The notes under the pieces: generated by a model
Told to the model about the DNA's origin: nothing
Databases searched by the model: none
The model's input: the letters and a program-made list of their open reading frames with translations, nothing else
Shown here: piece by piece, positions 3,193 through 34,555 of the stretch
Position numbering within the stretch: the stretch's first letter is position 1
How the letters are laid out: each line of letters opens with the position of its first letter
Origin: Bacillota bacterium
Lineage (GTDB): Bacteria; Bacillota; DTU014
Direction: 5' to 3'
Assembly (NCBI GenBank): GCA_012719595.1
Contig: JAAYAB010000087.1
Coordinates: 1 to 35,992 of the forward strand
DNA length: 35,992 nt
Translations under genes and position numbers: made by a program

Positions 3193-3267
3193 TGGAGCCG
3201 ATGGTGGGAGTCGAACCCACGACCTGCTCATTACGAGTGAGCTGCTCTACCACTGAGCCACATCGGC
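3193..3267 (-). tRNA. tRNA-Thr (anticodon CGT)
   Basis: GCCGATGTGGCTCAGTGGTAGAGCAGCTCACTCGTAATGAGCAGGTCGTGGGTTCGACTCCCACCATCGGCTCCA; full cloverleaf, encoded CCA, loop CTCGTAA. Confidence 0.95.
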
Positions 3268-3279
3268 AAGGGCACAAAA

Positions 3280-3354
3280 TGGAGCGGACGACGGGATTCG
3301 AACCCGCGATCCTCGGCTTGGGAAGCCGATGCTCTACCGCTGAGCCACGTCCGC
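3280..3354 (-). tRNA. tRNA-Gly (anticodon CCC)
   Basis: GCGGACGTGGCTCAGCGGTAGAGCATCGGCTTCCCAAGCCGAGGATCGCGGGTTCGAATCCCGTCGTCCGCTCCA; full cloverleaf, encoded CCA, loop TTCCCAA. Confidence 0.95.
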
Positions 3355-14243: not shown

Positions 14244-14637
14244 GGCTTAACCCTCCAACACGTCTCACGGACGGCAGAAACCCGTCTATCTATGGGTGTC
14301 TCCGCTGCGATTCAGGACAGAACAGGGCAGAACGATTATATTGTAGGTTGCCCTGTGCTGGCAGTCAAACACGGTGTGCACACTTCTGAGCACAACGTCT
14401 TGCCCAACCGCTCCTATTCTCAGCGAATCTGTCTCCCTTGTATTCCCGCCGCACGACAGCATTTTACCTGCTAAAGCGACTTTTAGGCCAACACTTACCA
14501 GAGGGTGACTGGACAACCCTGTCGAATCACGTTATGTAAACCGATCCTGGCAATGACAATTGCCTACACCCGCACTGCAGCTACTCTAAAGCGAGGTTGC
14601 GGGAACCGTCATTTTTCATTTCATATGGAGGGGTTTG

Positions 14638-15591
14638 ATGGTGTTTGCACAGACCGGCAAGTGGGTACTGATCGCGGCGATGGCTCTGGCTATCGTGCTT
14701 GCGTTCGCATCGCCCGTATCGCTTGCCAGCCAGATGCACACGGTGCGACAGGGAGACACTCTATACAAGATCTCTCAAGCGTACGGCGTCTCAGTGAGCT
14801 CGATCAAACAGGTTAACGGGCTGACTTCGGACGTCATCTACCCGGGACAGACCCTGGTGATCCCAACTTCCGGCGGCTCGCAAGGCGGCAGCGCGTACAC
14901 CGTCAGGTCTGGAGACACGCTGTATCTGATTGCTCAGCGCCACGGGGTGAGCGTAAGCGCGCTCAAGTCTGCCAACGGGTTGTCCAGCGATGTGATCTAC
15001 GTCGGACAGACACTGGTGATCCCGAGCAGCAACGGAGGCGGTCAGAACGGCGGCCAGTCGTCTGTCCACACCGTGCGCAGCGGTGAGTCGCTCTACAAGA
15101 TCGCTCAGACGTACGGAGTCTCAGTCGCGAGCCTCAAGCAGGCCAACAACCTCAAGTCGGACGATATCTACCCAGGACAGAAGCTGACGATACCCAAGAA
15201 GGAATCGCCCGGCTCGGCACCGTCACAAAGCGATCGAGATCTTCTTGCCAGATTGGTACAGGCGGAGGCAGGTGCAGAACCGTACACCGGAAAGGTAGCA
15301 GTGGCTGCAACCGTTCTAAACAGAGTCCGCAGCTCCGCCTATCCTAACACGATCCCGGGAGTCATCTACCAGGTGATCGACGGCAAGTACTATCAGTATG
15401 AGCCCGTGCTGAACGGGACAATCAACCGGCCGGCGGGCAGTGAAGCCCTGAAGGCGACAGACGCCGCCCTTGGCGGGTGGGATCCCTCTCTAGGCGCGAT
15501 TGGGTTCTACAACCCGGCTAAGACGACCAATCAGTGGGTAAGGTCCCGCCCGGTAACAGTCAGGATCGGTAACCACGTGTTCTTCAAATAG
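14638..15591 (+). CDS. Exported cell wall hydrolase: three LysM domains plus SleB/Hydrolase_2 domain
   Basis: Signal peptide; HTVRQGDTLYKISQAYGVS, YTVRSGDTLYLIAQRHGVS, HTVRSGESLYKIAQTYGVS; then DLLARLVQAEAGAEPYTGKVAVAATVLNRV...GVIYQV. RBS ggagggg. Confidence 0.93.
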   Translation: MVFAQTGKWVLIAAMALAIVLAFASPVSLASQMHTVRQGDTLYKISQAYGVSVSSIKQVNGLTSDVIYPGQTLVIPTSGGSQGGSAYTVRSGDTLYLIAQRHGVSVSALKSANGLSSDVIYVGQTLVIPSSNGGGQNGGQSSVHTVRSGESLYKIAQTYGVSVASLKQANNLKSDDIYPGQKLTIPKKESPGSAPSQSDRDLLARLVQAEAGAEPYTGKVAVAATVLNRVRSSAYPNTIPGVIYQVIDGKYYQYEPVLNGTINRPAGSEALKATDAALGGWDPSLGAIGFYNPAKTTNQWVRSRPVTVRIGNHVFFK

Positions 15592-28312: not shown

Positions 28313-28428
28313 CCGGCTGCGAGACAGCCGCCTCCGACAAAGGCACGATATCGCAGGTAGCAGGCGACCGAATCAACAGTGAACATATACTGTAGTGACA
28401 GACGACCACGAAAGGAGTGAATTTCCTA

Positions 28429-28962
28429 ATGACTCATTGCGGCCCGAGCCACACGCCTCCTTGCCCAGGCGGCACTCTCTACAGAATACGGCCTGGAGAC
28501 TCGTATTTCAGCCTGGCACAGAGGTTCGGCACCACGATCGAAGCGCTATTTAGGGCAAATCCGGGAGTCGACCCGCGCAATCTGATGATCGGCCAGGTGA
28601 TCTGCATCCCGGTGCCACCTACGCCCGGTCCGTGCCCCGGAGGGTTCGAGTATGTGATAAGAAGCGGCGACACGTACTTCAGCATAGCCAGGAGATTCGG
28701 AACCACGGTTCAGGCGCTCATAGCTGCCAACCCCGGAGTCGACCCTGACAATCTGCAGATCGGCCAAGTGATCTGTGTACCCGCTCCTCCACAGCCATTC
28801 TGCCCCGGAGGCACGATCTATATAGTCAGACAGGGAGACACGATGTTCCTCATCGCCCAGAGGTTCGGCATCTCTCTGCAGCGGCTCATAGCGGCGAACC
28901 CACAGATAGCAGATCCTAATGTAATCCAAATCGGCGACAGGATATGCATTCCGCCGAATTGA
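28429..28962 (+). CDS. Three-LysM protein with CPGG-linked modules (spore coat/envelope-associated type)
   Basis: CPGGTLYRIRPGDSYFSLAQRFGTT..., CPGGFEYVIRSGDTYFSIARRFGTT..., CPGGTIYIVRQGDTMFLIAQRFGIS...; aaaggagtg before ATG 28429. Confidence 0.9.
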   Translation: MTHCGPSHTPPCPGGTLYRIRPGDSYFSLAQRFGTTIEALFRANPGVDPRNLMIGQVICIPVPPTPGPCPGGFEYVIRSGDTYFSIARRFGTTVQALIAANPGVDPDNLQIGQVICVPAPPQPFCPGGTIYIVRQGDTMFLIAQRFGISLQRLIAANPQIADPNVIQIGDRICIPPN

Positions 28963-31564: not shown

Positions 31565-31783
31565 TCAGGCCTCCTTGCGATCCGCATCTGTCGCACATAG
31601 GATCTCATCTGCAGTAATGCGCAGTACATCGACGAGCCCCACAATGAGATCAGCTGTAAGCTTCTTTCGATCGTGCTCGAGATCGCTGTACTGGCTCGCC
31701 GAAAGGCCGATCTTCTGGGCCACGTACTTGGCCTTGAGACCGCGCTCGAGCCTCAGTGCTCGAATTCTTGCTCCGTAACTCAT
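31565..31783 (-). CDS. XRE family HTH regulator (72 aa)
   Basis: MSYGARIRALRLERGLKAKYVAQKIGLSASQYSDLEHDRKKLTADLIVGLVDVLRITADEIL. Confidence 0.88.
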   Translation of the reverse strand: MSYGARIRALRLERGLKAKYVAQKIGLSASQYSDLEHDRKKLTADLIVGLVDVLRITADEILCATDADRKEA

Positions 31784-31823
31784 TGCACCACCCCCAATGA
31801 CGCGTTCCGCTTAGTCCATATCC

Positions 31824-31852
31824 ATCATATGTAAGCGGATCGCTTATGTCAA
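31824..31852 (-). promoter_or_regulatory. Near-consensus sigma-A promoter with an inverted repeat in its spacer, upstream of the minus-strand XRE gene
   Basis: Minus strand TTGACA - TAAGCGATCCGCTTACA (17 bp) - TATGAT; palindrome TAAGCG-ATC-CGCTTA at 31832-31846; extra half-site cgcttag at 31808-31814. Confidence 0.8.
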
Positions 31853-31930
31853 GAGTTTTGTACGCGTTTTGCAGGATCGAAGTTCGCCATACCCGAAGAT
31901 GTGGTATAGTACTCCTGAAGGAGTGACGGA

Positions 31931-32414: not shown

Positions 32415-32546
32415 CTACACGCCAGTGCAGGCTCCGCCCATAGTTCCCAGCAGCAGGAGTATCAGGACCAAGAAGATGATCCACGCCTGCCTCCATCCGA
32501 AGAACCCGCCGCATGTTCCGGAGCCCCCAGGAGTTCCTAGACCCAT
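32415..32546 (-). CDS. Single-TM microprotein 1 (43 aa), YjcZ-like layout; not in the ORF track
   Basis: MGLGTPGGSGTCGGFFGWRQAWIIFLVLILLLLGTMGGACTGV*; GGAGGG before ATG 32546; paralogous to 32842-32967 and 34436-34555. Confidence 0.8.
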   Translation of the reverse strand: MGLGTPGGSGTCGGFFGWRQAWIIFLVLILLLLGTMGGACTGV

Positions 32547-32747
32547 AGTCGCGCCCTCCTTCATAAGCCATGTGCAGTATAACCTATGTTGCTAACACAC
32601 ACCTCGACTCACGCCTGCCGCGAGTTGTTCCATGTGACCACGGAGGCCGCGCGTCGAACCATTCCCAGCCCCGAGACACACCCGGACCCCCAGACACGCT
32701 CAGGCCCCGAACAGCTCCCGCGCAGTAAGCGAGCTGTACAGACAGAA

Positions 32748-32774
32748 GGGTTCCGGCTGTGCATACCGGAACCC
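32748..32774. terminator. Perfect 9-bp stem hairpin downstream of microprotein 2
   Basis: gggttccgg-ctgtgcata-ccggaaccc. Confidence 0.5.
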
Positions 32775-32841
32775 GCAATCTGCCACACCAGCACAGAGAG
32801 AACGGCGGCCGCCTCAAAGCGACGCGGTCTGTCAGGCACGA

Positions 32842-32967
32842 CTACACGCCGAAGACCATACCTCCGAGGGTACCCATCAGCAGGAGGATCAGTATGAGGA
32901 ACAAGATCCACGCCTGCCTAGTGCCGAACAAACCCACACCAGGATCCGGATTCCTCTCTTCAGGCAT
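32842..32967 (-). CDS. Single-TM microprotein 2 (41 aa), YjcZ-like layout; not in the ORF track
   Basis: MPEERNPDPGVGLFGTRQAWILFLILILLLMGTLGGMVFGV*; GGGGGGTG upstream of ATG 32967; paralogous. Confidence 0.82.
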   Translation of the reverse strand: MPEERNPDPGVGLFGTRQAWILFLILILLLMGTLGGMVFGV

Positions 32968-33074
32968 TCTGTCACCCCCCTAAAGCGATTCCACCATATC
33001 GTATGCACTGCCGAGAGTGACAGAGACTGCGCAAGAGGAGTTCGTTCTCATTGCCCATGCCATCAACTTGCACA

Positions 33075-34001
33075 TCACTCGATGCGAACCTCCACCGTGA
33101 CTACGGCCGAGGAGAAGAACCCAGTTCCATCTGATATGGTGTATACGAAGGTGTCCAGTCCCTCGAACCCAACGGGCGGTGAGTAGTGGACATTGCCTTC
33201 GGGCCAGAACTCTATCACCTGACCGTACATCGGCTGGCTGACCGAAATCACCTGAACGGGATCGCCGTCGGCATCAAAATCGTTGCTGAGCAAGCCCATC
33301 AAGACTGCAAAGGGAGTGCCTTCCGGCGATACCGTTATGCTGAAGTATTCGTTTGCGGCGGTCGGAGCATCGGGTCTGGGCCTGACTGTGACCGTCACTG
33401 AGCCGGTTGCGGTCCCGCCATGGGGATTCGATACCGTGTATGTGAAGCTGTCTTCACCGTAGAAGTTCTCATTTGGAGTGTACTCGATCTTTTGATCAGG
33501 TGTGATGGTCGCAGTCCCGTTTGACGGCTGAGTCACATCGATGATCACGAAGCCATCGCCTTCTATGCCTGACAGAACGTCTACGACTACGGTTGAGTCT
33601 TCATCGATGCTGACCTCCTGATCAGCCACCGTCTCCTCGCCGCCTGGATCCGGATCGGGTGGCAAGTCGTCCTCGACCGTCACAGCGACAAAGGTCGCAC
33701 TGGTGGAGGTCGGCGACACGGTGCTCTGGCTCGGGGTGAAGGTCAGCCCTGTCGCGCTGGGAGTCACTGTCACTCTGCCCTGCAGGTAGCTCTTGAGCCA
33801 TCCCCCGTCCGCCCCGGTCTCAGCCGTGCCATAGCCGTCACTGAACAGAAGAGTGACGCCAGGAATGCCATTGTCGGCGCTGTCGACAACTCTTCCCGAC
33901 GCGTTGTACGGCAAGGGACTCACGCCGAAGACACCTCCGCTGCATCCTGTCAGAGTTGCAGCCAAGACGCAGTATAGAAGCAAACGCAGAGCGTTCCTCA
34001 T
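33075..34001 (-). CDS. Lipoprotein with Ig/cadherin-like (Big_9/VCBS-type) repeats
   Basis: MRNALRLLLYCVLAATLTGCSGG lipobox; repeats VTQPSNGTATITPDQKIEYTPNENFYGEDSFTYTVSNPHGGTATGSVTVTV and VSQPMYGQVIEFWPEGNVHYSPPVGFEGLDTFVYTISDGTG; aaaggagg before ATG 34001. Confidence 0.85.
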   Translation of the reverse strand: MRNALRLLLYCVLAATLTGCSGGVFGVSPLPYNASGRVVDSADNGIPGVTLLFSDGYGTAETGADGGWLKSYLQGRVTVTPSATGLTFTPSQSTVSPTSTSATFVAVTVEDDLPPDPDPGGEETVADQEVSIDEDSTVVVDVLSGIEGDGFVIIDVTQPSNGTATITPDQKIEYTPNENFYGEDSFTYTVSNPHGGTATGSVTVTVRPRPDAPTAANEYFSITVSPEGTPFAVLMGLLSNDFDADGDPVQVISVSQPMYGQVIEFWPEGNVHYSPPVGFEGLDTFVYTISDGTGFFSSAVVTVEVRIE

Positions 34002-34355
34002 GCTCAATCCTCCTTTCTCGAAGTGCGCTGAGAGTGGCGCAGAGTCGCCCAAACACTGTCGTCGCGCTGTACATACAATCAGCCGGTGACACAGCGTCTC
34101 AACCAAGACACTGAATCAACCGGCCAATCCCCACTCAGCAAAGCCTGGGGCTCGATCCGAGGGCCCCTGACAGGGATTCCCTCTCCGTGCCCGCGAGCAC
34201 GAGCCCTCTGCTGACAATCTAGTTCGCCTCAAGAGTGCAGAATCCTTCCTAAGCGCGCCTCGCAGCCTCGCGGTCCAGGTCCGGCCTTCAGAGACCTTCT
34301 TCGTGCCCCGATCGCTGCTCCTTCGTACCAATGGCACAAATCCTTGATCCCTGTG

Positions 34356-34384
34356 TTACAAAGCACAACGCTCAAGAGTATAGT
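34356..34384 (+). promoter_or_regulatory. Candidate promoter for microprotein 3
   Basis: TTACAA (34356-34361) - 17 bp - TATAGT (34379-34384). Confidence 0.5.
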
Positions 34385-34435
34385 GAAATGAGATCGCACG
34401 TTGCGAGCACTTGCATAGGCGAAGGAGGCAACCAT

Positions 34436-34555
34436 ATGCCTGAGGAGAGAATGGACGGCTGTGGGCTGTTCGGCACACGTTGGGCATGGATCATCTTCCT
34501 CGTGCTGATCCTGTTGCTCCTAGGCACCTGGGGCGGCCAGCTCTTCGGGGTCTGA
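34436..34555 (+). CDS. Single-TM microprotein 3 (39 aa), YjcZ-like layout
   Basis: MPEERMDGCGLFGTRWAWIIFLVLILLLLGTWGGQLFGV*; gaaggaggcaaccat before ATG 34436; near-identical to microprotein 2. Confidence 0.85.
   Translation: MPEERMDGCGLFGTRWAWIIFLVLILLLLGTWGGQLFGV

Follow-up and report, generated by a model that had tools for sequence, protein, structure and literature searches.

The window, by which we mean the whole 35,992-nucleotide stretch of DNA analysed here, encodes three microproteins, w1, w2 and w3, whose open reading frames, each with a good Shine-Dalgarno sequence, were found exactly where the sequence-only reading had placed them. The genes and their associated elements are listed below; G001 is the comparison genome, from another genus of the window organism's family and the only other genome of that family compared.

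32415–32546, minus strand: microprotein w1, 43 aa, MGLGTPGGSGTCGGFFGWRQAWIIFLVLILLLLGTMGGACTGV; matched by the genome profile, with a syntenic counterpart on G001 contig C13
32554–32560, minus strand: Shine-Dalgarno AAGGAGG of w1, seen in the sequence
32580–32588, minus strand: sigma-K-like −10 element of w1, CATAGGTTA, C at −42; weak score with the position weight matrix (PWM), chance 0.055 over the upstream region
32842–32967, minus strand: microprotein w2, 41 aa, MPEERNPDPGVGLFGTRQAWILFLILILLLMGTLGGMVFGV; matched by the genome profile, with a syntenic counterpart on G001 contig C13
32975–32981, minus strand: Shine-Dalgarno AGGGGGG of w2, seen in the sequence
32997–33005, minus strand: sigma-K-like −10 element of w2, CATACGATA, C at −38; PWM score 8.8, chance 0.002 over the upstream region
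34422–34428, plus strand: Shine-Dalgarno AAGGAGG of w3, seen in the sequence
34436–34555, plus strand: microprotein w3, 39 aa, MPEERMDGCGLFGTRWAWIIFLVLILLLLGTWGGQLFGV; matched by the genome profile, closest counterpart on G001 contig C5

The Shine-Dalgarno sequences lie 8–14 nt ahead of the ATG in each case. Two of the genes had been noted as missing from the ORF track, which is consistent with a 60-aa cut-off, as w1 and w2 fall below it; w3 sits within a 74-aa ORF that has an upstream ATG. Alignment of the three peptides gives 22 invariant positions among 43 columns, with 56–64% identity to w1. A profile built from them and searched against the organism's own genome (2.99 Mb in 313 contigs) recovers exactly w1–w3, at E values of 2e-26 to 2e-21, together with one further copy, w4 (C174:1294–1401, plus strand; MGWGGAAVGTQQAWIIFLVLILLLLGTWGGQIFGV), and the paralogy proposed earlier is borne out. 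Gene w4 is flanked upstream by a gene of ~343 aa and on its other side by one of ~471 aa, the product of which is read as TldD-like.

G001 likewise has four copies, and these pair 1:1 with w1–w4. Conserved gene order backs the pairs of w1, w2 and w4, the last of these on another contig pair, and w3 is paired by sequence with its closest counterpart, MPEDRTDSGCGGLFGGRWAWIIFLVLILLLMGTWGGQFFGV. The order common to both genomes runs from an SNase gene through w2, w1, an XRE gene, a small XRE gene, a 790-aa gene and a LysM gene to SerRS; the w1 counterpart adjoins the same XRE gene, and the syntenic w2 counterpart reads MPEERDPGGFFGSRQAWIIFLILILLLMGTWGGLFFGV. Codon comparison gives pN/pS values of 0.39 for w1, 0.20 for w2 and 0.12 for w3, the range over the four pairs being 0.12–0.39, and pooling all four yields pS 0.66, pN 0.16 and pN/pS 0.24 (Fisher P about 1e-22). 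By this measure strong purifying selection acts on the reading frames, and the synonymous bias in a related genome that had been suggested as a check of their reality is indeed present. Short, hydrophobic ORFs that are absent from protein family libraries might be spurious, but the selection on these frames, their Shine-Dalgarno sites, their conserved order and their membership of a genome-wide family all speak against this; the pooled ratio and its P value refute it, and we give it next to no credence.

The three-row profile of w1–w3 found 19 positive genomes among 101 relatives; a scan with it over wider genome contigs returned nothing confirmable, low-complexity masking probably hiding the helix. 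A broader, 25-row family profile (A2) was run on 300 genomes drawn from the phylum, of which 75 were positive, with up to 11 copies each and many tandem arrays. Members are roughly 22–50 aa long, with a single helix and the core A-[FW]-I-x-F-L-[IV]-L-I-L-L-[LF]-[LF]-G-[DTN]. This core, with a length of no more than 55 aa, is found in 169 of the 171 distinct peptides gathered, most of which are 25–39 aa. The helix core columns F, L, I, L, I, L and L are each conserved at 89–100%, with A-F before and [LF][LF]-G-D after in most. Glycine makes up 27% of the N-terminal flank; K or R stands directly before the helix in 55% of the gathered peptides versus 12% directly after it, and D or E follows the helix in 69%. 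The glycine-rich start and single hydrophobic helix described in the sequence-only reading hold for the family of the window peptides, and the MPEER...GLFGTR frame that it set apart as a possible separate subfamily does mark a real orthologue group, albeit only one group within a much larger family. Hosts recovered by a degenerate DNA pattern scan include Moorella species, Thermovorax subterraneus, Fervidicola ferrireducens, Desulforamulus, Syntrophaceticus, Desulforadius and Ammonifex. Profile searches of Pfam, NCBIfam and the PDB returned no match for the window peptides or the wider family, nor was any solved structure matched, and the core peptide was not found as a protein family in the literature searched. 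The family is large, multi-copy and unnamed.

SpoIVA is present in 250 of the same 300 phylum genomes. Among genomes at least 90% complete, all of the 69 that are microprotein-positive have SpoIVA, and none of the 39 without SpoIVA is positive (hypergeometric P = 3e-6, a value that ignores genome relatedness). The two positives without SpoIVA have a completeness of only 75% and 61%, and sigma-K scores over the model cut-off in each; sporulation genes are present in 75/75 positive genomes, and in the window organism's own genome Spo0A, SpoIVA and sigma-K all score over cut-off. Judged by gene content, these data show the family to be confined to spore-formers within the sampled phylum. It is not a universal part of sporulation, since only 69 of 229 good-quality spore-forming genomes carry it. 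The Spo0A C-terminal domain was not found in G001 (assembly 96% complete), which may reflect an assembly gap or a true loss; retention of the microproteins without sporulation, which the missing Spo0A brought into consideration for this genome, is countered by the presence of SpoIVA and sigma-K.

A promoter signature was sought in 128 regions upstream of copies outside tandem arrays; related sequences are pooled here, since thinning was done only at 70% identity. In an unbiased search of 1024 XXXXnnnX patterns, with no prior motif and dinucleotide shuffles for comparison, CATAnnnT was the most enriched pattern, occurring in 87/128 regions versus 13.7 +/- 3.4 in shuffles, or in 66% of family regions versus 5% of 132 control ORFs. 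The element CATANNNT lies most often about −40 from the start codon. When the regions are aligned on CATA a second element, GTAACC, appears, with its AC 17 nt before CATA in 48/80 aligned regions. The B. subtilis sigma-K consensus consists of a −35 element KCACM and a −10 element GCATANNNTA (PMC3416734), separated by 15 +/- 1 bp (PMC517825). Because a distance of 17 nt from AC to CATA equals an element gap of 15 bp, the family promoter has the sigma-K layout, and both elements at a spacing of ~15 bp are found at the level of the family. Motifs for sigma-E, sigma-G, sigma-F, sigma-H and sigma-A were each present in 0–3 of the 128 upstream regions. These data show that most family members carry a promoter of predicted sigma-K type.

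Among the window copies, w1 and w2 have the −10 element (2/3), and in w3 it is weak or absent. Across the two genomes of the window organism's family, CATANNNT occurs in five of the eight copies, always at −37 to −42 and in each case with a C at −18; the shuffle mean is 0.68, and 0/3000 shuffles reached five. The AC of the −35 element is reduced to xC in most of these eight copies. Using a PWM trained only on the genomes of other families, without these two, the w2 −10 site is the second-best of 71,910 window positions on both strands, and the element is kept in G001 as CATAGGATA. Gene w1 shows the −10 element only; w3 has no CATANNNT, its best PWM site having a chance of 0.04, and w4 is also without a clear CATANNNT and has a weak PWM site.

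The sequence-only reading likened the peptides to the YjcZ-type small sporulation proteins of Bacillus. The link to sporulation is upheld by the sigma-K-type promoters and the restriction to spore-formers, but membership of YjcZ is not. The resemblance to the YjcZ family (PF09680, YjcZ_2) is considerable: both are very short, have a glycine- and aromatic-rich start and one hydrophobic helix, occur in multiple copies and are tied to sigma-K, by predicted promoter type here and by regulon membership in B. subtilis, where yjcZ belongs to the sigma-K regulon (PMC517825). They differ in the core A-[FW]-I-x-F-L-[IV]-L-I-L-L and the often acidic C-terminal end of the present family, and in its hosts, Moorella and Thermovorax among them, which are Clostridia that live anaerobically and in many cases are thermophilic. 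The peptides could nonetheless be remote YjcZ members that have diverged past current models, a reading that fits sigma-K control and differs from ours in ancestry. In its favour are the shared size, Gly/Tyr-rich start, single helix, copy number and sigma-K control (predicted here; PMC517825 for YjcZ), and some relatives (MSYGYGGCYDSCAFIIFLILILLLLGGSGYGYGCNSK) are very YjcZ-like in composition. However, none of the window peptides matched the YjcZ models, none of 42 diverse members matched PF09680 or the NCBIfam sporulation models, YjcZ included, at E <= 10, their few weak matches being to unrelated membrane proteins, and PF09680 had no hit over its cut-off in any of 61 genomes from the group, in a search that did find its B. 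subtilis control target. With 0/42 members matching YjcZ or another sporulation model, we do not file the family as YjcZ, and we think a shared ancestry unlikely, if worth keeping in view.

Other small peptides offer further points of comparison. SpoVM and CmpA are proteins of tens of residues that are made in the mother cell and act at the forespore surface; they are under the earlier sigma-E control and single-copy, and SpoVM is amphipathic rather than membrane-spanning. The present family is like them in its small size and differs in those respects. The YhzE family of B. subtilis, which includes SscA, also consists of tiny hydrophobic peptides with many paralogues. YhzE is equated with SscA, small spore coat assembly protein A, which acts in spore coat assembly. 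SscA has been described as a coat component (PMC12368082). The Bacillus YhzE family has also been listed among putative type I toxins, with confirmation awaited (PMC6562991). That listing lends something to the idea that the microproteins are type I toxin-like or holin-like, for example permeabilising or lysing the mother cell as sporulation ends, as does their likeness to TxpA, Ldr and Fst, which are also short, with a single hydrophobic helix and duplicated genes; tandem copies add to the resemblance. Unlike such toxins, however, the family has a consistent sporulation promoter and a near-invariant helix, and no antisense RNA was found by Rfam within the window. The flanks of orthologues hold nothing conserved beyond the promoter, the Shine-Dalgarno sequence and one terminator hairpin (downstream of w4); since orthologues do not otherwise share their downstream DNA, there is no conserved antisense gene. 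Nor is there an excess of sigma-70 sites. These indirect comparisons lend no support to type I toxin status, and we regard a toxin or holin function as improbable, a lysis role that needs no antitoxin being the form in which it might hold. Less persuasive again is a role unrelated to sporulation, in which w1–w3 would be independent hydrophobic microproteins controlled by the XRE regulators or connected with the neighbouring lipoprotein. XRE genes do adjoin w1 in both genomes, but w1 and the XRE gene converge in both, and the place of the lipoprotein is taken in G001 by a methyl-accepting chemotaxis-like gene. With a convergent XRE gene and no lipoprotein gene at the matching position, this comparison of gene order rules them out as functional partners on present evidence; the promoter and the distribution of the family also argue for another role, and we consider this one very improbable.

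The best explanation is that w1–w4 are genuine genes for single-pass membrane microproteins made in the mother cell under sigma-K late in sporulation, and from the sequence evidence we think this likely. The restriction of the family to spore-formers and its late-sporulation promoter signature together argue that w1–w3 are real genes, probably for building the spore, and control of the family by sporulation and sigma-K is the part in which we place great confidence. In the window organism w1–w4 would be expected late in the mother cell, each peptide inserting through a single short helix, some 17 residues long. From the positive-inside rule and the excess of K/R before the helix over that after it, we infer an N-in orientation, in which the Gly/Arg-rich N-terminus would be cytoplasmic and the C-terminus, which is short and either Gly/Asp or aromatic in character, would lie outside, presumably in the mother-cell membrane or the outer forespore membrane. 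The near-invariant helix residues suggest helix–helix packing, by self-assembly or with a fixed partner, over plain anchoring, and such packing may build or stabilise the outer spore layers. By analogy with the sigma-K-dependent YjcZ and YhzE(SscA) peptides of Bacillus, the microproteins would act as small structural or adaptor parts in assembling these layers, a role that we hold as a serious possibility without quite favouring it. Our best reading is that the family works like YjcZ and YhzE(SscA) while constituting a separate sequence family.

These genes are of interest because such short genes escape annotation: a family without an entry in the libraries searched nevertheless occurs in roughly one in four of the phylum genomes sampled. 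For Moorella-like bacteria it provides a marker set and a candidate for spore envelope assembly, and it offers a second lineage in which to ask what YjcZ/YhzE-type peptides do.

Several observations concern loci in relatives. In Moorella thermoacetica (G132 C14; L166, L191) a copy is found on the upstream side of sigK, about 0.25 kb away and divergently oriented, an arrangement that does not apply to the window copies. At loci L172, L069, L050, L006, L159 and L177 there is a conserved cluster that comprises a patatin-like phospholipase, an unassigned ~120-aa protein (YDExALxVxxSLRPYLGPxGNGCLxALESLLELL), a YbaB/EbfC-type protein and microprotein genes, together with a ~100-aa protein ending in ANPFTLFLILILLLLSDF, which is the same helix fused to another domain. 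Another neighbourhood that recurs, at loci L010, L013, L058, L059, L066 and L128, has a YbaB-type protein and an unassigned protein containing LLxLLSLTNLLGIVSYLN beside microprotein copies. The patatin/YbaB clustering and the fusion to the ~100-aa protein suggest that the helix may be a reusable membrane module, a reading drawn from these other genomes that does not apply to the window copies. A more speculative synthesis, which taken as a whole we find doubtful, would have an unnamed, non-YjcZ superfamily of sigma-K-controlled transmembrane microproteins as a principal component of the spore envelope, present in multiple copies, in a large group of anaerobic Clostridia, its near-invariant helix assembling in ordered fashion within the outer forespore membrane, and some lineages fusing the helix to other small proteins in the patatin-like lipase/YbaB cluster.

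Within the window, the best PWM site of all (31831, minus strand) was rejected as a sigma-K promoter; it is located ahead of the small XRE gene, and its sequence is that of a sigma-70 promoter, TTGACA-17-TATGAT. The near-consensus sigma-70 promoter of the 72-aa XRE gene (window 31783–31860, minus strand) overlaps an inverted repeat, AAGCGATCCGCTT, possibly an autoregulatory operator. The window also encodes two LysM-type proteins (28417–28962 and 14635–15591), the 181-aa one with three LysM domains, a layout common among spore coat and cortex-associated proteins, and an adjacent pair of tRNA genes on the minus strand (3196–3267 and 3283–3354) identified by Rfam match.
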